This document shows, one piece after another, positions 39,771-52,021 of a DNA stretch of 55,470 nucleotides. Within the stretch, counting starts at the first letter, position 1; every line of letters begins with the position of its first letter. This DNA is from a virus. The stretch spans positions 1 to 55,470 of the IMG/VR virus record IMGVR_UViG_3300045911_000113. The stretch is one strand, 5' to 3'. Under the pieces are notes generated by a model, which worked only from the letters and a program-made list of their open reading frames with translations, ran no database searches and was not told where the DNA came from. Made by a program: the position numbers and the translations under genes.

Positions 39771-42404
39771 TTAGAACTCGAAGAACTTACTAGCAGATTG
39801 GTTGACATCGGTTGGTAATTTACCCCATTTTAATGCTGAATAGAAATCTTCGATCTTGTTTTTCAACTCGTTTTCAAACAAGGCATCGTAATCTATGTAC
39901 TTGTTAACAAACTCGACCAGTTCTGGTGGGTCGTCATATCCCTTCAATGCCATCGTATCAATACCGAGATCATTCTTTTTCAGATAGGTCCACTTGATTT
40001 TATCACCATCTTTGATGACTTCATAGCTCTTATCCAGATTGTGGTGACGTAACCACCGATTGTATGCAATACTAGCTTTAACGTGCGCCGGCGTACCCTT
40101 ATCAAAGATTTTGAATCCCTTGACCTTCTTGTTATCGAATTCACTGATGTTCTTGACTCCGGTATTACGTGCCACCGCCTCAAACGGCATGGTATTCAAT
40201 ACAGAACGGAAGTTCAAAATCATATCATCGAGTGTGACCTTATCCTTCTTGTTTAGAATGGCGTCCAAGCACTCTGACATGGTCTTCTGAAAAGCCGGTG
40301 GAAAACTTGACCGAACCGTATCTAATCCTTTTACGACCAGTTTCGCCTTTTCTAAGTCAATACCACTTTCAAGGTCATATACTTTCTTCATTGCGTATCG
40401 CTTTTTGGTTACCCAAAACGCGGTTTCACACACAGCTTCACCCTTGATTACAAATCGGTGGTTTTCATTACAGAAGAACAATTTACGCGCCATTGTATCG
40501 TAAAACTCGTTGAGTTGACGTTCCATATCACGGGCCAACTCTAAAGTGAATTGTTTCATATCCGATACATTCTTTCCCACAGACATAGCCGAGAAATACA
40601 CAGAATCAGTGTCAATATAAATACAATGATCATTGGGACTCATCAACTTATCCGCTTCTTCACGAGTCAGTCTACCTTTTTTGACTTCTGTATCCAAGAC
40701 TTCTTTGTATTCAAACAACCACGATTCCGACTTGGGTTCTGCTCCCATCTTTACATACTGATTCGAAAGAAATCTCGCACTGGTTTTGATTACATCTTGA
40801 CCCGTAGCCGTCACTGCCAACGCATTGTCCAAGTCGTAGAATCGAAAGAGGGGCAGACCCAACGCGCCGTAAATAGAATTCAGAAGAATTTTTTGTACGT
40901 GCTGGCGTCGATCATAATAGTCAGCCAGTTCATCATTACCTTCCTTCTTGTACTTCTTCATCAAACCCTTGTATTCGACACGTTGCTTGAACCAGACATC
41001 AAGAATTTCTGGAATTACCCCGGTCTTGTCTGCACGATATAATACACCGTTGGAACTCAACATAAAACGATTAGTTTCCATAAAATCCGCGAACTCCTCA
41101 CGGTTCATGCTTACTTCCACATCATCAATTTTAAGTTGAAGATCCATCAAGGTGTTCTTCATAAACTGTTCGACGTTCCAATTTGTGACATACCCCATCT
41201 TTGTTTCTGGGCTAATGTTCAACGTCATAATGATTGACGGATACAGACTCTGCAAGTCGAGATTATATACCCAATCATACAGACCCGGCATCGGCGGCTT
41301 TACGAACGCGCCGGCGAAACCTTCATCATCATCCTCGAGCTTCTGGTCAAATTCTTCACGACCCTCGGGACGCTTGTTTGGCACTACGATATTCTTACGA
41401 TGTAGGTATACCAGAATGGTCCCTTCGATATACTTGGAACTATACTTGTAGTCTTCGTATTGCGTATGACCAACGTGACTAATGTTCTTGACCAAATCAA
41501 TGAGTTTCATCTTTCGGTCGAGCGCCACTACGATACGCACGTCTTGCAAGTTGTATTCAATGAATTTTTCAAGATCACTTGCGTATAGATCATCAAGTGT
41601 TCCTTCATATTCAATCTTACCCATACCAACTTCATACATACCAATAGCATCAAGTCGATAACTTGGACGACGAGCAAACGTAAACTTCTGATACATTTCC
41701 AAGTAGTCGAGACAGCTCACGCCCGCCAACTGATACTGACGACGAAGCTTGCTATACTTTATCATACCAATAGGACTCAACATATTTGCAGTGTCGTCAT
41801 CAAAAATTACTGACAGACGACGATACAAATATGGAATATCGAACTGCGAAATGTTCCATCCCGTGAGAATAGTTGGCGCGTAGTCACTATAATAAGCCAT
41901 AAATGCTTCGAGCAATTCCGCCTCGGAAGCAAAGGTCACAACGGTTTCGTTTTTGACTTGTCGCCGGTTATCCATACGAGAATCACGATCCAGCAAAAAT
42001 ACTACATATTCATCCTTGGCCTGTGCGTAGCAGCCGATAGCATTAATTACGCCATCGGCACGTTCAATATTTGCAAACTCACCGTTGACCTTTTCTACCT
42101 CAATGTCAAAAAATAATACACGATGATTTTTTGCTACCTCATCGCTGTCTTGGTATAAATCTGTCAATACGCGAGTTTCACGCGGGACATCGCTCTCAAA
42201 GATACCGGGCTGACCTTCTTTCCAACGAAATGTTTTTGATACACGATCACCAAAAATTGTTACTTTGTCTCCTTTAGGATCAAGTCTGTATGCATAATCA
42301 AAATCAGCATACGGATAGGTGACGAGTCCGGCGTTGTCATCCCAAATATATACCGTTGCAGGACTGTCTTCAGTTTTATTTGTTATGAATATGTTCTGGT
42401 ACAA
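39771..42404 (-). CDS. 43: Family B DNA polymerase gp43, TTG start
   Basis: 877 residues. Exonuclease motifs: VLFFDIEVE (D100, E102), TGWNISQFDI (D189) and YNLQDVRIV (D288). Polymerase motifs: A NLDLQSLYPSI (D383), B KILLNSIYGALG (505-516), C YIDTDSVYF (D598, D600). Start: a TAA lies in frame directly before TTG 42404, no ATG is available before conserved sequence, and GGGGGAAG lies 6-10 nt upstream, so a TTG start is well supported. The first 29 bp overlap the DruA-like gene. No intein is present. It copies the phage genome with gp45 and gp44/62. Confidence 0.95.
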   Translation of the reverse strand: MYQNIFITNKTEDSPATVYIWDDNAGLVTYPYADFDYAYRLDPKGDKVTIFGDRVSKTFRWKEGQPGIFESDVPRETRVLTDLYQDSDEVAKNHRVLFFDIEVEKVNGEFANIERADGVINAIGCYAQAKDEYVVFLLDRDSRMDNRRQVKNETVVTFASEAELLEAFMAYYSDYAPTILTGWNISQFDIPYLYRRLSVIFDDDTANMLSPIGMIKYSKLRRQYQLAGVSCLDYLEMYQKFTFARRPSYRLDAIGMYEVGMGKIEYEGTLDDLYASDLEKFIEYNLQDVRIVVALDRKMKLIDLVKNISHVGHTQYEDYKYSSKYIEGTILVYLHRKNIVVPNKRPEGREEFDQKLEDDDEGFAGAFVKPPMPGLYDWVYNLDLQSLYPSIIMTLNISPETKMGYVTNWNVEQFMKNTLMDLQLKIDDVEVSMNREEFADFMETNRFMLSSNGVLYRADKTGVIPEILDVWFKQRVEYKGLMKKYKKEGNDELADYYDRRQHVQKILLNSIYGALGLPLFRFYDLDNALAVTATGQDVIKTSARFLSNQYVKMGAEPKSESWLFEYKEVLDTEVKKGRLTREEADKLMSPNDHCIYIDTDSVYFSAMSVGKNVSDMKQFTLELARDMERQLNEFYDTMARKLFFCNENHRFVIKGEAVCETAFWVTKKRYAMKKVYDLESGIDLEKAKLVVKGLDTVRSSFPPAFQKTMSECLDAILNKKDKVTLDDMILNFRSVLNTMPFEAVARNTGVKNISEFDNKKVKGFKIFDKGTPAHVKASIAYNRWLRHHNLDKSYEVIKDGDKIKWTYLKKNDLGIDTMALKGYDDPPELVEFVNKYIDYDALFENELKNKIEDFYSALKWGKLPTDVNQSASKFFEF

Positions 42405-43137
42405 TTATTTCTTCCCCCGATAACGGCTTGTTTAACTTGCTTTTCCAATCTTTTGTGAGTGGTTTCACGAAAATCAACTTCTGTGTGCTATCGGTGACGA
42501 CATAATGTTCTCGACCAACTGCATATTTGGCAATCGCAGCTTTTGGATCAGTTCTGGCCAATTCGCCTCTAGCGCTGGTTTCCTTTTGCCATAACAACAC
42601 CGGTGCTTTTTTTACGCTGTTGCCAGAGGTTCGTCCCACAAAAGTCCAGTTATCAGCCAAATACACGGCCCCATTTCTCTTATTATCTGAACCGTCGATC
42701 TCGGGTTGAACATAAGTTTCTAGTAATACAAGTTCATCACCATACTTTTCTTGCCAACGACGAGCGCCGTTCTCACGCAATAATCTTAAACTCATAGTTC
42801 CAAGATTTTTTACACCACTGTTAGGTATTAAACAAAACCGATAGTTGTTAGCAACATTGTTGCTATGAAGCAATCGCGTCGTTGCGTCCCATCCTATATA
42901 TCGGTCGCGATCACCGACGGCCAATACACAACTACTAAGTCCCACCGCACCCAACAAATCACCGCCATCACTTTTATAAATGAGCCAGTTAATTCTGCGT
43001 TGAGGAACACACTTAAACTTTACATAACTGTGATATCTATTTATGGTTTTGGCAAATAATCTGTTTTGCGCAGAGGAAACACATTCCTCGAAGAATATGG
43101 GATAATTGTATAAGTCTCTGTAATCGAAAAATGACAT
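42376..43137 (-). CDS. DruA/DUF4338-like protein next to DNA polymerase
   Basis: 253 residues. RINWLIYKSDGGDLLGAVGL, then GDRDRYIGWDATTR, NNYRFCLIPNSGVKNLGTMS, YGDELVLLETYV and GAVYLADNWTFVGRTSGN match the ordered motifs of DUF4338, the domain of DruA. The other member at 34578-35747 is more diverged. It overlaps the polymerase start by 29 bp and so is probably co-translated. Function in phages unknown; possibilities include DNA modification or anti-defence. Confidence 0.72.
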   Translation of the reverse strand: MSFFDYRDLYNYPIFFEECVSSAQNRLFAKTINRYHSYVKFKCVPQRRINWLIYKSDGGDLLGAVGLSSCVLAVGDRDRYIGWDATTRLLHSNNVANNYRFCLIPNSGVKNLGTMSLRLLRENGARRWQEKYGDELVLLETYVQPEIDGSDNKRNGAVYLADNWTFVGRTSGNSVKKAPVLLWQKETSARGELARTDPKAAIAKYAVGREHYVVTDSTQKLIFVKPLTKDWKSKLNKPLSGEEIIVPEHIHNK

Positions 43138-43141
43138 ATGA

Positions 43142-43618
43142 CTAAATTAAATTTAGATGTTTGTAGAGTTTCTTTCTTGAAGCGGTTTTATTATTTTCAG
43201 TAATTATCCCATGCTGTTTTAAAGAAATTACTTCATCCGTAGTAAGAAATACAAATTTCCATACATTATAATTTGTATAGTCTACCAAACACCATAGATC
43301 AACATTTTGTAATTTTTTTTCCCATCCACCATCGGTGTACTTCCTTCCCTTACCTACTTCATTTGATGGTGCAAATGAAACGCGATCATACATTGATCGA
43401 ACTTCAATCTTAAGGCCGTCGGGCGAGACATTATCGTAAGAACAATTCTCATTTCCGGCCCGCTTACCTATTCCAAGAGATTCAATAATAAACTCTGCAT
43501 ATCGGCCAACTATACGACCATCATTAAAAAATTTACTAAGCAGTTCGACCGACAAACCACCATTTACCGATGCCATAGCCGGTATAGATACATCGTATTC
43601 AAAGTTTTTCGGCTTCAT
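43142..43618 (-). CDS. Hypothetical protein, possibly nuclease-like
   Basis: 158 residues from ATG 43618 with CGAGGAG upstream. The stretch GLKIEVRSMYDRVSF and NVDLWCLVDYTN...FVFLTTDEV could be the strand-ExK-like core of a restriction-endonuclease-type fold (E-V-R), as seen in some PD-(D/E)XK proteins lacking the Lys. No closer assignment. It precedes the DruA-like gene by 4 bp. Confidence 0.55.
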   Translation of the reverse strand: MKPKNFEYDVSIPAMASVNGGLSVELLSKFFNDGRIVGRYAEFIIESLGIGKRAGNENCSYDNVSPDGLKIEVRSMYDRVSFAPSNEVGKGRKYTDGGWEKKLQNVDLWCLVDYTNYNVWKFVFLTTDEVISLKQHGIITENNKTASRKKLYKHLNLI

Positions 43619-43652
43619 CAGTATAACTCCTCGATAATCCCTAAAAATCAAG

Positions 43653-43952
43653 TCACTCTGAGAGTGTTACACTTTCGTTACAATTGATCTCAATAATTTT
43701 TAACAATTCAGTTGCACGGTCTTGACCGATCCAATGGATTAGCTCAGACTTAAATCTATCGTCTGTTTTATTTTCTGTCAAGACCATTTCAAATGCAACA
43801 ATTTCGTCTATTCTACTTCCAAATGCTCTAGGCATTCCGACCCAGGAAACACCACCGTCCGCAGACACCAAAAGATCATAGGTGCCCCACGGACGGATGT
43901 TGTTTCGTTTGAATTGGAAGTTTTGTTCGTTAATCCAATCAGTTAATGTCAT
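43653..43952 (-). CDS. Hypothetical 99-residue protein
   Basis: Begins MTLTDWINEQNFQFKRNNIR and contains RPWGTYDLLVSADGGVSWVG, then an acidic helical C-terminus. No family recognised. It lies between dut and the nuclease-like gene, same strand, with a 34-bp gap downstream. Confidence 0.6.
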   Translation of the reverse strand: MTLTDWINEQNFQFKRNNIRPWGTYDLLVSADGGVSWVGMPRAFGSRIDEIVAFEMVLTENKTDDRFKSELIHWIGQDRATELLKIIEINCNESVTLSE

Positions 43953-44016
43953 ATGTTGGTTTTATGAGATTGTATGTCTGGACCGTTCAGCCACTTTAAA
44001 TATTCATTATAGATAT

Positions 44017-44451
44017 CTATCTGCCAGTTGAACCAAACCCATCTAAATTTCTATCAGTTTTACCAGAAAATTCAAAAATTTCAATAGGTTCTACAATAAT
44101 ACACTCTTGAAGAACCATTTGTGCAATCTTATCACCTGGCAAGAAATGAATTTTTGTATCATTTGGGTTGAAGAACGCCACAATAATCTCGGCCCGATAG
44201 CCTGGATCAATCACGCCGGCAACGGTAAACACTTCTTTCTTCGTAGCCACACTAGAACGATCCTTGATAATCCCACCGACATTCTCTGGAAACTGCACCG
44301 CAATGCCCGTCCGTACCTTGGTAACCACGCCGGGTTCCAATGTCACCGATTCCAATGTGTGTAAATCAAATCCCAAATCATCTTTATGTGCTTTACTTGG
44401 AATTGTTGCTCGACTATCTAGCTTACAAAAACCAATTGTGAGTTTGTTCAT
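44017..44451 (-). CDS. dut: dUTPase
   Basis: 144 residues. All five trimeric dUTPase motifs are visible: DDLGFDLH (I), KDRSSVA (II), GVIDPGYRAEI (III), LPGDKIAQMVL (IV) and RNLDGFGSTGR (V, with Asn-Leu-Asp in place of the usual Gly-rich start). It hydrolyses dUTP to dUMP for ThyX and keeps uracil out of DNA. The ATG is preceded by TGAGGATAT, whose TGA is the stop of the broken VWA gene, so translation was coupled to it. Confidence 0.95.
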   Translation of the reverse strand: MNKLTIGFCKLDSRATIPSKAHKDDLGFDLHTLESVTLEPGVVTKVRTGIAVQFPENVGGIIKDRSSVATKKEVFTVAGVIDPGYRAEIIVAFFNPNDTKIHFLPGDKIAQMVLQECIIVEPIEIFEFSGKTDRNLDGFGSTGR

Positions 44452-44457
44452 ATATCC

Positions 44458-44778
44458 TCAGAATGTTAACATGTTGAGTTTCTTTTCAATAGCTTCTACC
44501 GTGGTATCACCGTAGATAAACTGCGATGCTCGACCATCACGATAGAATACTGTCATTGGTATGGCTTTGATTCGAGCACGTTCCTTAAACTGGAACAGTG
44601 TGACCTCAGTTTCGCCACCTAATTCAGCATTTCAACGTAATACACCAAACTGTTCATTGATGCCATCTACGGTCTGCTTTTCAATGCGTCTCATTGAACC
44701 TGAACGGTCAATGACTAATGCTACATACGTCTTTTTTTCGTTCTTCTTGACCTTCTTGGTCTTTTTTGTTGTAACCAT
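44458..44778 (-). pseudogene. Broken VWA-domain gene with in-frame TGA
   Basis: ATG 44778 has a perfect GGAGGAG site. The frame encodes a basic N-terminus, then KKTYVALVIDRSGSMRRIEK with MIDAS DRSGSM (24-29) and TVDGINEQFGVLR. Codon 49 (44634-44632) is TGA; the same frame continues with NAELGGETEVTLFQFKERAR and stops at 44458 after 106 codons. A full VWA domain needs about 180 residues and the TxxxDA region is missing, so the gene is both interrupted and truncated. TGA is an ordinary stop elsewhere in this window, so read-through is not assumed. Confidence 0.75.
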
Positions 44779-44996
44779 TATCGTACTCCTCCGTATGTGA
44801 AGCCTAATTTTTCAAGACTGTCATACGTGAAGCCTAATTTTTCAAGACTGTTTTGTTTTTTTGTTGTGGTAACTGTTATGGTTGTGGTGGTTTCTGGGAG
44901 GGGGACAAGTCCAATCCATCGTGGACGACACCAGTAACACGAATGACAGCATGAATTACAAGAGTGACAGCATGAATTACAAGAGTGACAGCACAT
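44778..44996 (-). CDS. Repeat-built Cys-rich small ORF
   Basis: 72 codons from ATG 44996, which has GGTGGAG 7 nt upstream. The N-terminus is a cysteine repeat (MCCHSCNSCCHSCNSCC), encoded by two perfect 21-bp tandem copies. The centre is Thr-rich. The C-terminus is two copies of SLEKLGFTY(D/G), encoded by two 30-bp tandem repeats. Its end resembles the end of the upstream gene (FDKLGMKPGGV versus EKLGFTYGGVR). The DNA in both cases supplies the next ribosome binding site. It may be a non-functional product of repeat expansion. Confidence 0.4.
   Translation of the reverse strand: MCCHSCNSCCHSCNSCCHSCYWCRPRWIGLVPLPETTTTITVTTTKKQNSLEKLGFTYDSLEKLGFTYGGVR
44791..44850. repeat. Two 30-bp tandem repeats
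   Basis: 44791-44820 and 44821-44850 are identical at 27 of 30 positions, sharing gtgaagcctaatttttcaag. They encode SLEKLGFTY twice on the minus strand. Confidence 0.9.
44951..44992. repeat. Two perfect 21-bp tandem repeats
   Basis: 44951-44971 and 44972-44992 are identical copies of a 21-bp unit starting atgaattacaagagtgacag. A partial unit precedes them at 44941-44950. They encode CHSCNSC-type repeats on the minus strand. Confidence 0.92.
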
Positions 44997-44997
44997 A

Positions 44998-45552
44998 TCA
45001 TACTCCACCGGGTTTCATACCCAGCTTATCGAAAATGTTTGTAGGTGTTGTCTGCGACACGGAGTTTGCGAGGGTGATTAATCCCGATACACCAAGACTT
45101 CTAACCATTGATGAAACTTGTGGTGATACCCAAATAGCATTTGCAGTGCCAAATGGGATGTTGGGATCTACTGATTCTACTTTGGCCGAGAATGAACCAG
45201 TAAGAGCACCTCCTGTGAGTACACAACTATAGTTTTGAGCTCTTGCAAGTACCACTAGGTCTTCTCTGGAAAGGCCGGTACGAGCACTGTTTTGATACAA
45301 TGTCGTACCGGAAATACCATCCACGCCTTTCCAGTTTGGGTTGTTTTCGCCAACGCGAGTTTTTAGTTGGCAACCACATGACGTAGAACGACCTTTGACC
45401 AATGAGTATACATCGGCACGTTTTACACTACCACATACACACTGTACATCCATTTGAGCAGGACTGTCGTAAATGACTCCATCCACTACAGTCCATGACC
45501 CAAATGTATCACCGGCTTTGAATTTTCCTACGTACTTTGGTTTTCTACCCAT
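44998..45552 (-). CDS. HNH-homing-endonuclease-like protein, catalytic residues eroded
   Basis: 184 residues, GGAGGTTAT before the ATG. The N-terminal half has a Cys-rich DNA-binding module seen in phage homing endonucleases: FGSWTVVDG, VQCVCGSVKRADVYSLVKGR and STSCGC. The C-terminal half NYSCVLTGGALTGSF...VESVDPNIPFGTANAIWVSP lines up with the HNH pattern C..tG..L....VDri....GY...N..wV, but the key His residues are absent. It is probably a decayed or DNA-binding-only derivative. The hairpin at 45561-45613 lies over its ribosome binding site. Confidence 0.6.
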   Translation of the reverse strand: MGRKPKYVGKFKAGDTFGSWTVVDGVIYDSPAQMDVQCVCGSVKRADVYSLVKGRSTSCGCQLKTRVGENNPNWKGVDGISGTTLYQNSARTGLSREDLVVLARAQNYSCVLTGGALTGSFSAKVESVDPNIPFGTANAIWVSPQVSSMVRSLGVSGLITLANSVSQTTPTNIFDKLGMKPGGV

Positions 45553-45560
45553 ATAACCTC

Positions 45561-45613
45561 CTGGCAGACATCTATAAGTAGTGTCGTTTTTCGTAAAACG
45601 CTTATTCTGCCAG
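45561..45613 (-). promoter_or_regulatory. RBS-adjacent hairpin with CTACTTATAG motif
   Basis: Arms CTGGCAGA/TCTGCCAG (45561-45568 with 45606-45613), with an inner CGTTTT/AAAACG hairpin (45585-45600). On the minus strand the 3' arm ends at CCAG directly followed by GAGG of the ribosome binding site. CACTACTTATAG (45583-45572) lies inside, so RNA started there would not fold this hairpin. Confidence 0.6.
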
Positions 45614-45633
45614 AAATCATTGTTCGAATTATC

Positions 45634-45821
45634 CTAGATTGTACAACCACCGGCCACACATGCAAGATTTTCTGCTAGAGCCGTATCATCCTCGGTTTCA
45701 ACAACCTTGGTGAGATCAAGTGTATGTAGGTGTGCAAATAGTTCTTCATATCGTTAGCAACATAAGTCTTCTTCGCCGTTGATTTCTTCGGCAACTTGAC
45801 CTTGATTTTCTTTACCGCCAT
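45634..45821 (-). pseudogene. Chimeric remnant: VWA-type N-terminus joined to an old NrdJ tail
   Basis: ATG 45821 with AAGAGG starts MAVKKIKVKLPKKSTAKKTY VA (read without gap), resembling the start of the broken VWA gene. At 45755 the sequence switches, out of frame, to an NrdJ C-terminal tail: the frame HLHTLDLTKVVETEDDTALA then ENLACVAGGCTI ending in TAG at 45634. The first 53 bp of this tail are identical to the active nrdJ tail at 46462-46514, the rest is diverged. As read from the ATG only 48 codons are open. Confidence 0.7.
45703..45755. repeat. 53-bp direct repeat, copy 1
   Basis: Identical to 46462-46514. Lies in the chimeric remnant and derives from the 3' end of nrdJ. Confidence 0.93.
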
Positions 45822-45830
45822 ATAAACCTC

Positions 45831-46388
45831 TTACTTTTGAAAGGTATGTTTGTAAACATCCATCACGGCTTGTAATCCGTTATCAGTGATGTCTCTTGTG
45901 CCTATGCCGGCAAAGTGTTTAGTTCTCAACTTCGGTATTCCTGTGAATATGGAGAACCTACCGTTGTGATGGTCATATTCATACCATGATTCTGTGGGCT
46001 GGTCGTAAAAGAATATCGGCTTTCCGTTATTTACGGCCATTTGAACGGCCCAACCTGTGCCACCATCAACGCGCGTGTATGTATCGTCGTAAAATTTACC
46101 AATGGCAAAGATAGTCTCTCCATTTTTCACTTGATACCAATTTCTACTGATTAAACACTTGGTATATCGTGGCGCGGATAGGAGATTTCGTTTGAATTGC
46201 ACATTCACATCTAATGCATGTGCCAATCCTTCATGTAATTCAGCATCTGATAAGATGACGGGATTTTTTCCATACTGTTTGTGACCAGAGAAAGAATAGG
46301 CGTATGTCACCACGCCGTATTCTTCTCCAGCAGTTTCCCATGCCATATCAGCGCCAGGACACCCGCCACTGTGACATACATAACCCAT
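45831..46388 (-). CDS. SLOG/DprA-like Rossmann protein
   Basis: 185 residues. The N-terminus HSGGCPGADMAWETAGEEYG is a glycine-rich nucleotide-binding loop like that of SLOG/LOG-type proteins; the sequence continues VVTYAYSFSGH, TIFAIGKFYDDT, VDGGTGWAVQMAV and KPIFFYDQ, giving a Rossmann order with a second GGTGW loop. SLOG domains bind nucleotide-derived ligands and occur in defence and anti-defence proteins. It sits between the nrdJ C-terminal gene and the chimeric remnant, so it may have arrived with the recombination that made that scar. Confidence 0.6.
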   Translation of the reverse strand: MGYVCHSGGCPGADMAWETAGEEYGVVTYAYSFSGHKQYGKNPVILSDAELHEGLAHALDVNVQFKRNLLSAPRYTKCLISRNWYQVKNGETIFAIGKFYDDTYTRVDGGTGWAVQMAVNNGKPIFFYDQPTESWYEYDHHNGRFSIFTGIPKLRTKHFAGIGTRDITDNGLQAVMDVYKHTFQK

Positions 46389-46389
46389 A

Positions 46390-47073
46390 TTAGACTATCT
46401 CACAAGCTCCACCGCTGCAAGCAACGGTTTGTTGTAGTTCAGTTTCATCTTCTGTTTCAATAACCTTGGTGAGATCAAGTGTATGTAGGTGTGCAAATAG
46501 TTCTTCATATCGTTCCTTGGTAATGTCTTGGAACGGCGCCTGGATATAAGTGTGGTCGTCGTGTGGTAATACACTCAATGCGGTGTAGTTCTCTCGATTC
46601 GCCCACATCCACTCAAATACATCCTGCCACTCATCCTTTTTAATAGATACTGTGGTGGATACGTTGTTAATGTTTGCACCCTTACGATGTCCTACCTTGA
46701 CCCATTCCTTCCACACCTTACCTACGCGCTCAAGGAGGTCAAGAGCAGATTCATTGCGGAGAATAGCACCGTCTGGCGCCTTTTGTGGTACACTGATTAC
46801 CGCAGTCTTGTGTGGAGCAAAGAAATCGTCTTCCAACAACTCTGGATGTGCTTGTTGGAGATATCCATACACAGCTTCATTCTTGCCAACGCGGATGGTA
46901 CGAACGTAGTAGTCGTTGTGCCATGCGTGAATACCCGAAGAACTGCCTACTACAAGTGAGGTGGTGTTATGCACGACCGCGCCGTTCTTTAGTTGATAGG
47001 TATGTGTTCCCGACACCTCAATATCTACAGTTATTTTTTTCTCGGGATTCTTTCTAATTGTTTTGATTCTCAT
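46390..47073 (-). CDS. nrdJ: NrdJ C-terminal fragment preceded by C-terminal split-intein half
   Basis: 227 residues, TGGAGAAAATAA before the ATG. Residues 1-36 are a C-intein ending GTHTYQLKNGAVVHN; residue 37 (Thr) is the +1 extein residue. The extein TTSLVVGSSSGIHAWHNDYY continues the class II ribonucleotide reductase barrel and ends with the redox cysteines VACSGGACEIV (C218, C223). It must be joined to the middle fragment at 47130-47924 by protein trans-splicing. The nearest upstream gene on the strand is that fragment, 56 bp away. Confidence 0.92.
   Translation of the reverse strand: MRIKTIRKNPEKKITVDIEVSGTHTYQLKNGAVVHNTTSLVVGSSSGIHAWHNDYYVRTIRVGKNEAVYGYLQQAHPELLEDDFFAPHKTAVISVPQKAPDGAILRNESALDLLERVGKVWKEWVKVGHRKGANINNVSTTVSIKKDEWQDVFEWMWANRENYTALSVLPHDDHTYIQAPFQDITKERYEELFAHLHTLDLTKVIETEDETELQQTVACSGGACEIV
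46462..46514. repeat. 53-bp direct repeat, copy 2
   Basis: Identical to 45703-45755. This copy is inside the functional nrdJ C-terminal gene, covering codons for YEELFAHLHTLDLTKV. Confidence 0.93.
46966..47073 (-). mobile_element. C-intein of NrdJ split intein 2
   Basis: 36 residues, MRIKTIRKNPEKKITVDIEV to AVVHN, with intein blocks F and G. The penultimate His and terminal Asn are present and the +1 residue is Thr. Pairs with the N-intein at 47133-47450; the split site is in the usual position. Confidence 0.9.
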
Positions 47074-47129
47074 TTATTTTCTCCAAAAGATATTGATGTG
47101 TTCCATCTTTGTTGGTAATATAATATTAC

Positions 47130-47924
47130 TCAGTAAGAAATTATTTCGTCGGTTTCCACCAACTCATCGGCACGAACCCAACCACGAGCAGTCAAGAATT
47201 TGTGATTTGGTGTTACCGATACTACCAACCCGTCTTCCATTTCAATATCCCAAACTTCAGATACACCATTGACATAAAGAGATATAATCTTTTGTTCTTG
47301 ATTGTTTTCATCCAAGACGGTAACATCTCTATCAAATGGAATAAACGTCTTTTCTTCAATTTGTGATGGATCAACACCAATCATATCAAACAAACTTTTC
47401 AATGTTACTGATCCGTTTGTTGTCTTCACTTCTGTTTCAGGCACCACGCAGCCTTCGGGCTTGACCGTAGTAGTACGAGCGGCTTTGTTGATACCCAACA
47501 TTTCAGCAACACGAGCATTTTCTTCCTTGACAATCTTTGCTGCTTCGGCAAGATTGAGATTCAACACTTCACCAGAAGCAATACCCGTCATAGATACACC
47601 GATCAATGCTTCCTTCTCAGTGGTCTTCTTCCAAATATCACGGAGATAGTGGAAATTCGTGTAAGTTGCCTGCAACGTACCAATAAACGAGGCAACACGA
47701 GCACGAAGGTTGAGGTCGTTTTGATCAACAATATCCGATGCATTAATTGTTGTCAAATTACAGAACTGATTGGGGCGAAGACTAATTTCTGCGCAATTGT
47801 GTACTAATAGTCCGTTTGCAAAGAAGTTATGATTTTTTCTTATGGTCAAGTCATAAACATCTTCATTTTCCCTGATTGTCTTTTTTACGATTCTAGATTT
47901 AACAATCTGTTTTGCTTCCACCAT
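47130..47924 (-). CDS. nrdJ: NrdJ middle fragment flanked by two split-intein halves
   Basis: 264 residues. Residues 1-43 form a C-intein ending KNHNFFANGLLVHN. The extein (44-158) begins CAEISLRPNQFCNLTT, whose first Cys is the predicted thiyl-radical cysteine of the reductase, and ends ARTTTVKPEG. Residues 159-264 form an N-intein starting CVVPETEVKT. The protein therefore needs two trans-splicing reactions, one at each end. The start overlaps the end of the upstream endonuclease gene by 40 bp. Confidence 0.93.
   Translation of the reverse strand: MVEAKQIVKSRIVKKTIRENEDVYDLTIRKNHNFFANGLLVHNCAEISLRPNQFCNLTTINASDIVDQNDLNLRARVASFIGTLQATYTNFHYLRDIWKKTTEKEALIGVSMTGIASGEVLNLNLAEAAKIVKEENARVAEMLGINKAARTTTVKPEGCVVPETEVKTTNGSVTLKSLFDMIGVDPSQIEEKTFIPFDRDVTVLDENNQEQKIISLYVNGVSEVWDIEMEDGLVVSVTPNHKFLTARGWVRADELVETDEIISY
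47133..47450 (-). mobile_element. N-intein of NrdJ split intein 2
   Basis: 106 residues from C159, CVVPETEVKTTNGSVTLKSL onward, with block B VTPNHKFLT and ending in ADELVETDEIISY, a normal end for a naturally split N-intein. Inserted after KPEG, before the TTS that helps bind substrate phosphate. Confidence 0.9.
47796..47924 (-). mobile_element. C-intein of NrdJ split intein 1
   Basis: 43 residues starting MVEAKQIVKSRIVKKTIREN and ending LLVHN, strongly like C-inteins of the known NrdJ/gp41 split intein group. +1 residue is Cys. Pairs with the N-intein at 48760-49110. Confidence 0.92.
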
Positions 47925-48694
47925 TTTAATTCCCCCAAGTATGTATTTCCATCCAAAAACGGAGTAATGTTATCTATTAAACAAAACTCAACGTTTTTTA
48001 AAGATGGGTCTTTTTTAAGTTCTTCAAACTTCCACACCCTATTTTTGAAATATCCCTTGACTTCTATTATCTTTACAAGTTTTCCGGCTTCATATATAAA
48101 AAAATCAGGTCTATATGATTCTGCCCCTAACATCCATTGTTGAGATTCTACATCCCAATCAAATTTATTTTTATCTAACCATTTGGCTAGAATATATTCA
48201 TATGTTGACCGAAGCCATACATATTTTTGTCTTGATTTGTTAAAGAAGTAACCTGTAACCCCACGTTCTGTGTTCTTATTCTTGGTTCGTCTGTTTCTCC
48301 AACCGCCAGATTTTATTGCATTTTCACTTCTAACTCGTTTTAGATTTTCTGTAACAACATTATATCCTTTACGAATTGGTATGTTTATATATTCTAGGAG
48401 CCTACGCATTTTTGTGTAGCTAATGTTTAGTTCTCTTGCCATTAACTTTAATCCAACTCCGTCATGTTCATACTTTTGGCGCACCGATGATACAAAATAA
48501 TTCCACTCATCTGCATAAACTTCTTGGAGTTTTTTTCTAATAAAGGTTTTCTTTACAAACCCTCTAGCTCCGTTTCCATACAATTTATACTGCTCTTTAA
48601 AAAATTCTCGGTATTCTGTTTGCCACTCGTTACGAATGTCACGATACCCATCCAACTCTATAAACTTACGATATAAGGTATTCAAGTCTAACAT
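47885..48694 (-). CDS. Free-standing PD-(D/E)XK putative homing endonuclease between split-intein halves
   Basis: 269 residues from ATG 48694; an upstream TTG frame runs through the hairpin and is unlikely. A helical N-terminal part (helix-turn-helix-like, ARELNISYTKMRRLLEYINI) is followed by a segment GVTGYFFNKSRQKYVWLRST, YEYILAKWLDKNKFDW and the nuclease core YRPDFFIYEAGKLVKIIEVKGYF (PD...ExK). The gene lies exactly between the N- and C-intein halves of NrdJ split intein 1, the place expected for the element that fractured the gene. The protein at 54723-55470 has the same layout. Confidence 0.78.
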   Translation of the reverse strand: MLDLNTLYRKFIELDGYRDIRNEWQTEYREFFKEQYKLYGNGARGFVKKTFIRKKLQEVYADEWNYFVSSVRQKYEHDGVGLKLMARELNISYTKMRRLLEYINIPIRKGYNVVTENLKRVRSENAIKSGGWRNRRTKNKNTERGVTGYFFNKSRQKYVWLRSTYEYILAKWLDKNKFDWDVESQQWMLGAESYRPDFFIYEAGKLVKIIEVKGYFKNRVWKFEELKKDPSLKNVEFCLIDNITPFLDGNTYLGELKWWKQNRLLNLES

Positions 48695-48698
48695 AGGG

Positions 48699-48744
48699 TT
48701 CCCCGCAATAGGTTCTACATATAAATAGTGTCTATTGTGGGGAA
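48699..48744 (-). promoter_or_regulatory. Hairpin with CTATTTATA motif over the endonuclease RBS
   Basis: Stem TTCCCCGCAATAG/CTATTGTGGGGAA (48699-48711 with 48732-48744), 13 bp with one G-U pair. The minus-strand 3' arm contains the GCGGGGAA ribosome binding site of ATG 48694. The loop holds ACACTATTTATATG, so transcription started there would leave the site free. Confidence 0.65.
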
Positions 48745-48756
48745 ACAACCCATATG

Positions 48757-50472
48757 TTATTTAATATTCACCAAAATATCTTCTTCGGTCAATTGAGCGG
48801 CCTCCACCCAACCACGATTTTCAGTAAATACCTTGTGGTCCGGAGTTAGCTTTAGAGTCTCACCAGTATCAAGGGTCAATTCAATAATTGATGTCTTTTC
48901 GCGGGTAAGAGCAGCATTATCCAACACATCCCACTCCAACTGCTTTAGCTCTGTATTATACGAAAGCACCATTGGTGGTAATGTAGTGGTTTCGTAGAGT
49001 TCTACGAGCTGTTTAAGTGGAATCTGATATACTCCGCCTTCTGCGACAACTTCACCGTCGGAGATGATATCGTGATCTCTGACTGTAATGAGAGCATCTC
49101 CGGTAATGCATGGGTTGAGTCCCCATTCCTTGTCATTCGTCATAAAGAAGCCAGGTTCACCAGAACCCGATGCTTCAATCTTCTTCCATAGATCATAGAA
49201 GGTTTCCTTATCAATCTTGTGACGAAGAATGGTGGCGCTATTATTAGCACGTTGTCTCTGTGGATTCAATTCCCAGAAATTACCAAACTTACAAGTCAAC
49301 ATTTCTTCATCATCAAGATCGAATAGACTGATCATTGCGGAACGACGAATACCACCAGCTAATACCGCATCAGCAATATAACAGTTGATGTCATGTACAT
49401 CAATTGGCTCTAGTTGTTCGCCGTCTTCCTTACGTTCAAAAATCTTCTTGATGTTGTGTAACGCATCATTGAGAGGTTCTGGTCCCGGTGCCTTACCGCC
49501 AGAAGTGATAAGCTTTGCACCTTTGGGACGTATATCACGAAAATCAAAATCAGGTATAGGCTTGCCTTCAAAATAGGCACGAACAAGTACCTTTACTGCG
49601 TCTGACCATCCTTCAATACTATCTCCTACAACAAATCGACGAGTCTTCTTATTCTTACGAATAGCTGGTAGCTGTTCAATGTGATGACGCTGAACTGAAT
49701 ATCCTACTCCCACACCAGATAACAACAAGAACATGAGTTCGGAAAATGATGCGGGGTGGTTCATTGGCAAAAATGAACAGTTCCCTGTAACTTCCCCCGT
49801 TGCCAATACAAAGCTGCGATCATCTTCAACTTCTAAACACCACACCGGTTCCTTTCCAGATGGTACGATACTCTTGACAACAAAGCTCATATTCGTTTCA
49901 GGAGTAGATTCTTCATAGATAAATTGATCAAAGATTACCGGTGCAGATGCTAACTTATCTCCAACTTTTAGTGAAGTAGTTTCTGTTCCGTCCTTAAGAA
50001 TCCACCGATGATTCGATGTGGCTCTGGTCACATGTGAATGTCGTCCCCGAATAATCGTAATATCATACAACTCATCAACACCGTAGTTTCGTACTGTGGC
50101 CTTCTTCCAATTACCTTTGTGGGTAAGAACGTATGTGGTATCACCATCTGTAAAATCATTAAAAGATTTTACACCATCTCTCGTAACGAAACGGGTATCG
50201 GCGCTTAGACAATTGTAAATTCTAGCAGGGTTTAACTCAATCGGCTTTCCAGCAAATTGTAACGAACGCATAGACGGCAAAACCTTACGTTCAAAAACTA
50301 ATTTGTAAGCTTCACGAATTTCCTGTTCAAGTGCAGGAAATTTCTTGATGTGCATATCCATATTACGTGTGACTACTTCATCCCATGTCTCACGACGTTG
50401 GAGTTCTGGAATGAACTTGGCATATTTCATATGCACCGTGAGATCTGACAAAATTTGGGTGCTAAGTTCCAT
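48757..50472 (-). CDS. nrdJ: NrdJ N-terminal fragment with a cis intein and a terminal N-intein
   Basis: 571 residues. Extein 1-87 ends NPARIYN; a complete intein (88-231) follows; the extein resumes CSFLPMNHPASFSELMFLLL, through VLAGGIRRSAMISLFDLDD, to WGLNP at 454; residues 455-571 are an N-intein. This is the N-terminal part of the B12-dependent class II ribonucleotide reductase. After cis splicing here and two trans-splicing steps with the fragments at 47130-47924 and 46390-47073, the mature enzyme would have about 616 residues (87+223+115+191). It reduces ribonucleoside di- or triphosphates to deoxy forms using adenosylcobalamin. Confidence 0.94.
   Translation of the reverse strand: MELSTQILSDLTVHMKYAKFIPELQRRETWDEVVTRNMDMHIKKFPALEQEIREAYKLVFERKVLPSMRSLQFAGKPIELNPARIYNCLSADTRFVTRDGVKSFNDFTDGDTTYVLTHKGNWKKATVRNYGVDELYDITIIRGRHSHVTRATSNHRWILKDGTETTSLKVGDKLASAPVIFDQFIYEESTPETNMSFVVKSIVPSGKEPVWCLEVEDDRSFVLATGEVTGNCSFLPMNHPASFSELMFLLLSGVGVGYSVQRHHIEQLPAIRKNKKTRRFVVGDSIEGWSDAVKVLVRAYFEGKPIPDFDFRDIRPKGAKLITSGGKAPGPEPLNDALHNIKKIFERKEDGEQLEPIDVHDINCYIADAVLAGGIRRSAMISLFDLDDEEMLTCKFGNFWELNPQRQRANNSATILRHKIDKETFYDLWKKIEASGSGEPGFFMTNDKEWGLNPCITGDALITVRDHDIISDGEVVAEGGVYQIPLKQLVELYETTTLPPMVLSYNTELKQLEWDVLDNAALTREKTSIIELTLDTGETLKLTPDHKVFTENRGWVEAAQLTEEDILVNIK
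48760..49110 (-). mobile_element. N-intein of NrdJ split intein 1
   Basis: 117 residues from C455 (CITGDALITVRDHD) with block B LTPDHKVFTENRGWV and end LTEEDILVNIK. Inserted between Pro and the radical Cys of the NPC motif. Confidence 0.92.
49780..50211 (-). mobile_element. Cis mini-intein in NrdJ (residues 88-231)
   Basis: 144 residues, CLSADTRFVTRDGVKSFNDF to FVLATGEVTGN, with block B RATSNHRWIL. The penultimate residue is Gly rather than His (TGN then +1 Cys), a known but less common variant. It sits before the cysteine of RIYNCSF, predicted to be one of the redox-active pair. Confidence 0.9.
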
Positions 50473-50514
50473 CTTTTACATCTCAAATCAAAAAGGTTGA
50501 ACATGGTAGGTAAA

Positions 50515-50564
50515 GAATAAGTAGTCCTTCAAAGCGCACAATCGCGTTTCTGTGAAAGACTACT
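50515..50564 (-). promoter_or_regulatory. Hairpin and CTACTTATTC motif upstream of nrdJ
   Basis: Arms AGTAGTCCTTC/GAAAGACTACT (50520-50530 with 50554-50564, one mismatch). The minus strand reads GGACTACTTATTC (50527-50515), at the end of the hairpin and about 45 nt before the nrdJ ATG. A terminator function for gp41 is also possible. Confidence 0.4.
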
Positions 50565-50578
50565 ATTGTTCAATTTAA

Positions 50579-52021
50579 TTATCCTAAATCAATATCATCT
50601 AATGTATCTTCTCTCAATGCTTTATTGGTGGACATGGGATCGAGTAGTCGTTTTCTTAACATGGCATTCACCTTGCCAGCGCCATTCTCCATCTGGTTCT
50701 TGACACGGAGACCATCTGGTGAATTTTCATCATATACTTCAATTTTGCCGTGACTTAAATCCATATATGCTGGAAACGTCATGCCGTCAGCCCCGAAACG
50801 ATTCTTGATAACGTGGAATCGTGCCGTGTTGCTCATCTTGTCAGCAAGTTTACGACTTACCGACGCAACGAAATCCGCCACGAAAATCTTTGAATACGCA
50901 CCGGCAATTTTATCGGCTTCTACAACATCATCCTGCAAAGCCGAGCGCTGACTTTGTGAGGCCGTCCATCCTGGAATCTTGAGTTCACCTAACATACCAC
51001 GAATATCTTCATAAATGAAGCCCAGTTCTTCGTGACGAGCATTTGACTTTTCCGTGGACCGCATAAGGTCGGCATAGTCAATGATGACCAAATCAGGCTT
51101 ATAACCCAATTGTGTCATACGATTGATGTGAGCCGACAAATGATTTACTGATGCGGTGCGAGTTGGAAAATATTTGATGATTAGTTCTCCGTCAATTTGA
51201 TCAATCGCAGCACGAACCCGTTCTTTATTCTTACAAATTTCTCTGCTTTCTATGCCGGTAAAGATGCTATCATATCGTAGACCAACATAATTTTCTGACA
51301 ACTCAAACGTATAATCTACGACGCGCTTACCTCGCCGCAATGCTTCAGCAGCAATAGCACGAAGCACCCACGACTTACCAATACCAGACGGCGCAATAAT
51401 ACAACCCAGTTCCCCTGGTCCAAGGCCACCATCAAGCAATTCATTGATACACGGCCATGGTGTCGCCACCGTATCACGTGCGATCTTCGACAATCGAACA
51501 TCAATCTCGTTGACCCAATCGTGGCCGAGATTACGTTCTTGTCCGGCACGCATGGCACGATCAATCATACTCTTGATTTCTTCGTATTTACCCTTCTGAA
51601 CAAACTCTGCGCCCCTCAAGATAGCATTCTTGATGGCCTGATTTTTACAGAAATCTAAGAACTCCTTCTTGTGATATGCAAGATCGGTAGCCTTGGTATT
51701 CTTGTAAATAGACTTGAGCTGTTCTACCACCGACACGCGAAGCAAGTCCGCTTCTTTGTTACCTTGAAGCTTATCGCTCTCCCGCTTGAATACGTCTGGT
51801 GTGGGAATATCTCGATATTGTGTATAGTGCTCAAGAATCTTGTTTACAATCCACTTATTCGGTTCACTCTCAAAGTAGTGAGGCACAACAATATCAAATG
51901 TCTGTTCAAGAAATGTTTTATCCGTGAGCATAGACGCAATGGCCTTACTCTGAAATGTGGAACCATATTTCTGTAAAGTGTCAAGATTGTCTTTATCAAG
52001 ATCTTGTTTTACATCCGTCAT
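50579..52021 (-). CDS. 41: Replicative DNA helicase gp41 (DnaB family)
   Basis: 480 residues, uninterrupted. Walker A is APSGIGKS (210-217); Walker B LVIIDYADLM (D315); RRGKRVVDYTFELSENYVGL and WTASQSQRSALQ fit the RecA-like core of T4 gp41. The N-terminal 180 residues form the helical oligomerisation part. It unwinds DNA at the fork with the primase. Split-intein versions of gp41 are known from environmental phages, but this copy carries none. Confidence 0.92.
   Translation of the reverse strand: MTDVKQDLDKDNLDTLQKYGSTFQSKAIASMLTDKTFLEQTFDIVVPHYFESEPNKWIVNKILEHYTQYRDIPTPDVFKRESDKLQGNKEADLLRVSVVEQLKSIYKNTKATDLAYHKKEFLDFCKNQAIKNAILRGAEFVQKGKYEEIKSMIDRAMRAGQERNLGHDWVNEIDVRLSKIARDTVATPWPCINELLDGGLGPGELGCIIAPSGIGKSWVLRAIAAEALRRGKRVVDYTFELSENYVGLRYDSIFTGIESREICKNKERVRAAIDQIDGELIIKYFPTRTASVNHLSAHINRMTQLGYKPDLVIIDYADLMRSTEKSNARHEELGFIYEDIRGMLGELKIPGWTASQSQRSALQDDVVEADKIAGAYSKIFVADFVASVSRKLADKMSNTARFHVIKNRFGADGMTFPAYMDLSHGKIEVYDENSPDGLRVKNQMENGAGKVNAMLRKRLLDPMSTNKALREDTLDDIDLG

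Follow-up and report, generated by a model that had tools for sequence, protein, structure and literature searches.

A second, untranslated nrdJ 3′ end in a viral genome as a probable scar of out-of-register recombination

Why should a virus carry, close behind its gene for the class II ribonucleotide reductase NrdJ, another copy of the last part of that same gene? The question arises from the virus record IMGVR_UViG_3300045911_000113, whose 55,470 nucleotides are hereafter called the window, and for which the original prediction had reported 53 bp of identity between 45703-45755 and 46462-46514. This identity proved exact on both copies, which read on the minus strand (copy A, 46514-46462; copy B, 45755-45703) and are nested in a 97-nt pair with 86% identity that corresponds to the duplicated nrdJ 3′ end. 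With an 18-base seed and a length of at least 30, the nrdJ-tail pair is the sole direct-repeat family in the 55 kb window, and the chance expectation for the 27-base core of the 53-bp repeat is 0.00. Among the exact repeats of at least 18 bp listed with positions, the remaining ones are short tandem units, which also fall within this interval (44.79-44.99 kb; Table 1).

Copy A belongs to the functional gene end (tail A). The C-terminal part of NrdJ shares 68% identity with that of a more distant relative, IMGVR_UViG_3300049846_001293 (L087), and the C-x4-C end of tail A is common to other viral NrdJs. The second nrdJ end, tail B, spans 45755-45634 on the minus strand and reads RYEELFAHLHTLDLTKVVETEDDTALAENLACVAGGCTI up to its stop codon. 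In the NrdJ frame there is a TAA at the junction and no downstream start codon, which rules out the translation of tail B as NrdJ. The original prediction had described tail B as diverged and as joined out of frame to a VWA-like N-terminus, and we read the same sequences, with the VWA stub MAVKKIKVKLPKKSTAKKTYVA fused to tail B in a dead-end ORF of <50 codons. The joint at 45755/45756 sits in unique sequence, passing from VWA codon 22 to nrdJ, and not within a repeat; inspection by eye gave no convincing microhomology at this point, and the window contains no tRNA that could provide an attachment site.

Tail B also retains the C-x4-C end found on other viral NrdJs, which argues that it derives from a genuine nrdJ allele and is not a random decay product. 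Partial gene duplication by out-of-register (illegitimate) recombination occurs in phages, and the locus resembles such duplications in having a truncated gene-end copy fused out of frame to the start of another gene, but differs from them in that the last ~20 codons are not the same in the two copies. This difference suggests that two nrdJ alleles took part, and a simple tandem duplication of one allele is unlikely, since the last 60-70 bp of tails A and B are far apart beside the 53-72 bp of identity that precede them. Tail B as the downstream exon of a group I intron is ruled out, as no Rfam match was obtained in 43000-51000 at E up to 1.

Table 1. Features of the nrdJ-dut interval, in window coordinates and in the order read on the minus strand
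Feature	Positions	Strand	Evidence or remark
NrdJ C-terminal part (class II ribonucleotide reductase): intein C-half, then last extein, ending in tail A (...ETEDETELQQTVACSGGACEIV, stop)	46390..47073	-	ORF
53-bp repeat copy A, in frame in nrdJ	46462..46514	-	Exact-repeat listing
SLOG/DprA-like gene (185 aa), cargo of the inserted segment	45831..46388	-	PHROG 768, E 5e-14
First 22 codons of VWA gene (MAVKKIKVKLPKKSTAKKTYVA), cut at the junction	45756..45820	-	Resembles intact L087 VWA start (by eye)
53-bp repeat copy B; 45755/45756, apparent rearrangement joint	45703..45755	-	Exact repeat; same joint in L082 and L095
Diverged end of tail B (ETEDDTALAENLACVAGGCTI, stop), untranslatable here	45634..45702	-	6 SNPs in 66 bp vs L082
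HNH-like endonuclease ORF (184 aa), probable free-standing homing endonuclease or relative	44998..45552	-	PHROG 374 HNH, E 2e-9
Short tandem repeats: 21-bp unit near 44944-44990, 30-bp unit at 44794-44851	44790..44992	-	Repeat listing
Decayed gene: VWA N-terminus with in-frame TGA, fused to thioredoxin C-terminus	44459..44780	-	phmmer
dut (dUTPase), intact	44017..44451	-	Pfam PF00692, E 1e-21; 0 SNPs vs L082

The joint was seen in three records. Besides the window, it is present in IMGVR_UViG_3300044961_000066 (dataset 3300044961; G001, contig L082), which is 98.6-100% identical to the window in aligned blocks and shows the same order of tail A, SLOG, VWA start and tail B, without the HNH gene and the VWA-thioredoxin ORF, and in 3300045902_000096 (G003, contig L095), which starts just ahead of the joint and also misses the HNH block. 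The latter is identical to L082 over 1733 bp and may represent the same strain. An exact search of IMG/VR with the 27-base repeat core matched only these two records. In L087 the order is nrdJ, trx, Ig, HNH, VWA, dut, gp99 and polB, with neither the tail duplication nor SLOG, and the VWA gene is intact and starts, compared by eye, like the 22-codon stub (MAVKK...KKTYIA; at greater length MAVKKKVTPKK..NKKTYIA). The VWA start and the nrdJ end that are fused in the window are therefore separate in this undisturbed relative, with nrdJ before VWA, and the position of VWA between nrdJ and dut bears out the ancestral order put forward in the original prediction. In other relatives, too, nrdJ, thioredoxin and dut are neighbours, accompanied by varied inserts. 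The window holds a duplicated gene part of which one copy is untranslatable, at a junction that is absent from the undisturbed L087.

In our view, the locus is probably a recombination scar and not a functional element, left when two related phages recombined out of register. We infer a two-parent event, in which parent 1 would have carried nrdJ with tail A, SLOG and VWA between nrdJ and dut, and parent 2 nrdJ with tail B, HNH, VWA, trx and dut. An out-of-register crossover or end-joining may have connected VWA codon 22 of parent 1 to the nrdJ of parent 2 some 120 bp short of its end, with the outcome that a working NrdJ would be kept with tail A, SLOG would be gained, and the nrdJ end of parent 2 would be stranded as untranslated debris. 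The trigger may have been double-strand breaks made by homing endonucleases, of which HNH, VSR-like, LAGLIDADG and GIY-YIG types occur in or near the interval. In outline, this agrees with the earlier proposal that recombination brought in a new nrdJ end together with the SLOG gene and left the old tail behind; what has to be revised is the meaning given to the 53-bp length. Neither a parent with intact nrdJ-tail A-SLOG-VWA nor one with nrdJ ending in tail B was found in the scanned collections (SLOG, VWA, HNH, dut and NrdJ queries; exact repeat core in IMG/VR), an absence that does not exclude their existence.

The length of the repeat is strain-specific, as the two copies within L082 are identical over 64 bp, and copy B of L082 matches copy A of the window over about 72 bp. 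Comparing the window with L082, a single SNP is present in 46449-45703 (747 bp), followed by six in 45702-45637 (66 bp, about 9% divergence); L082 lacks the window block between 45634 and 44486, six further SNPs lie in 44482-44461, and dut then has none. Both flanks of the HNH block (9-24% divergent) are too divergent for the 1% background (p about 1e-10). Since the joint at 45755/45756 is shared and these flanks are divergent, the block 45702-44461 appears to have been exchanged or deleted separately in one lineage, and a later exchange or deletion may have removed or replaced it, with the HNH and VWA-thioredoxin genes, in some strains. This separate, strain-specific exchange sets the 45703 edge and with it the length of 53 bp. 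Read from the alignments, the two edges of the repeat appear to have different origins, the 45755 edge being the rearrangement joint and the 45703 edge a strain-specific exchange boundary. The original prediction had taken the 53 bp for a recent conversion boundary; this needs revising, since the identity does not represent a single conversion tract and its 45755 edge is the joint found in all three records. Gene conversion between the two copies is unnecessary, and a recent event fits their identity. The contrast between the low-SNP SLOG segment and the adjacent nrdJ is real (p 3e-4), but as proof of a recent sweep of this segment it is weak, SNP density being patchy across the whole alignment.

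A more specific account is that mis-homing of the HNH gene made the scar, the gene and a co-converted tail B flank having landed behind the VWA start of a recipient. This is a special case of out-of-register recombination that names the trigger, and we regard it as possible, though rather unlikely. In the window, the HNH gene lies directly after tail B, and HNH-like genes sit close behind nrdJ in L011, L015 and L040; the divergence of the HNH-block flanks from L082 is also what co-conversion would give. However, L082 and L095 have the joint without this gene, meaning that it arrived later or was lost, and its catalytic motif is unusual. In HNH proteins, WVH is expected after the DRID motif; by eye, the L011 relative has DRID where the window has KVESVD, and WVSP is found in both the window and the L087 forms, the latter being the gene in the corresponding place of L087, with 47% identity. 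On these motifs, the HNH protein seems to depart from the usual catalytic signature, and its activity is uncertain.

Several further features were observed around the HNH gene. A hairpin at 45555-45615 (CTGGCAGA...TCTGCCAG), only slightly stabler than shuffles (z -1.9), lies right before the HNH start and could cover its ribosome site. On the other side, a small Cys/His-rich ORF at 44778-45008 (MEYDMCCHSCNSCCHSCNSCCHSCYWC...) has an end, NSLEKLGFTY(x2)GGVR, that resembles the HNH end NIFDKLGMKPGGV. In the decayed ORF at 44780-44459, downstream of HNH, residues 2-65 match the L087 VWA (phmmer, E 1e-18) and the C-terminal 42 residues match the thioredoxin of L010 (phmmer, E about 1e-10), a fusion not included in the original prediction. 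A different VWA deletion, with about 28 codons joined to IEKKLNMLTF and a stop, is found in L097:1-160, which points to repeated decay at the same place.

The interval is a homing-endonuclease hotspot. Its nucleases include HNH-like genes in L011, L015, L040 and L087, and GIY-YIG-like and VSR-like genes in L010 and L005, respectively (both typed by eye). Near-identical strains differ by the VSR-like gene in an nrdJ intein and the HNH block, and also by a LAGLIDADG-like gene that follows dut and an HNH-like one that precedes polB.

Some of these differences deserve description in their own right. The nrdJ intein at 47885-48774 is split in the window by a VSR/PDDEXK-like endonuclease ORF (...LTEEDILVNIK and a stop on one side, MVEAKQIVKSR... 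on the other), and its counterpart in L082:4380-4520 is contiguous, in an 835-aa open frame (LTDEDIGVKVVEAKKIVKSR), L082 being about 99% identical around there. The two records form a natural split/unsplit intein pair that differs by the insertion or loss of 841 bp, and this polymorphism is more interesting than the tail duplication. A second nrdJ intein, at 47073-47130, is split in L082 as well as in the window, its halves being separated by no endonuclease; a further one nearer the N-terminus is a contiguous mini-intein. Behind dut, L082:7240-8120 encodes a LAGLIDADG-like ORF (282 aa), of which the window retains only the last ~20 codons at 44011-43950 (YNEYLKWLNGPDIQSHKTNI), a deletion remnant. 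The HNH-like insert before polB is present in L095:3092-3895 and L097:2176-2979, and absent in the window (42307-42428). In polB, the comparison of window 40535-41214 with L113 (G003) reveals about 1 kb extra and a 73%-identical flank in G003, a difference suggestive of an inserted intein or endonuclease whose flanks were co-converted.

Certain integrating elements restore the 3′ end of the gene that they enter, and the segment from tail A through SLOG to the VWA start could be a discrete mobile cassette of this kind; it would bring a substitute nrdJ end, and the 53-72 bp repeat would represent its attachment site or a target duplication. The identical sequence at both ends, the new target 3′ end and the old end beyond the insert would suit such an element, but we consider it improbable, as the 759-bp unit, whose last part is a truncated VWA start, encodes neither an integrase nor any other mobility gene, no second site with the unit and no empty site was found, and the SLOG relatives inspected in other places lack the flanks of the window locus. 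The SLOG protein is 100% identical at the amino acid level in L082 and 50% in L083; as a DprA-like domain it also occurs in jumbo phages and crAss-like phages, and a close-match scan of bacterial genomes gave no relative.

It is very hard to credit that tail B acts as a reserve 3′ end, swapping with tail A via the repeats to change the NrdJ C-terminus reversibly and gain or lose SLOG, for although its C-x4-C redox end is preserved and crossing over within the repeat would yield an intact NrdJ with tail B, no record in the IMG/VR search with the repeat core has nrdJ ending directly in tail B, such a crossover would delete SLOG, and tail B lies amid a stretch full of broken genes. An assembly chimera at the 53-bp repeat, a concern already raised with the original prediction, is highly implausible: the window is an IMG/VR-type virus record and the ends of several related contigs fall in this interval, which differences between strains would lead one to expect, but the joint lies where repeat collapse could not easily make it and recurs in G001 and G003, one of which differs by SNPs and the whole HNH block.

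Recombination between two related phages, out of register, can be set beside known systems. Published work places homing endonuclease genes in the vicinity of ribonucleotide reductase genes and where phage gene exchange has its boundaries (PMC10448857, Barth et al. 2023; PMC3653736). The present locus resembles the systems of PMC10448857 in having nucleases that lie close to a ribonucleotide reductase gene, are surrounded by mosaic divergence and are present or absent between close strains; unlike in those systems, the exchange here left behind part of the adjacent gene as an untranslated copy, and homing is only putative. In T4-like phages and Aeh1, mobE lies between or in nrd genes (PMC3653736), which is similar to the present case in that a nuclease gene is found beside or inside a phage nrd gene; here, in contrast, the gene is the class II nrdJ and not nrdA, and the working gene is whole at this end, the duplicate being debris. 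In the literature on partial duplications made by phage homing endonucleases, we found nothing closer than these two studies (PMC10448857, PMC3653736).

The stranded nrdJ tail is a fresh example of an already known type of event, an ordinary leftover of virus DNA swapping, and it does not change the understanding of how NrdJ works. It shows cleanly how the phage gene neighbourhood of a ribonucleotide reductase gene is reshuffled, near-identical strains preserving intermediate states, and adds to the view of nuclease-rich intervals as breakpoints in phage gene exchange.
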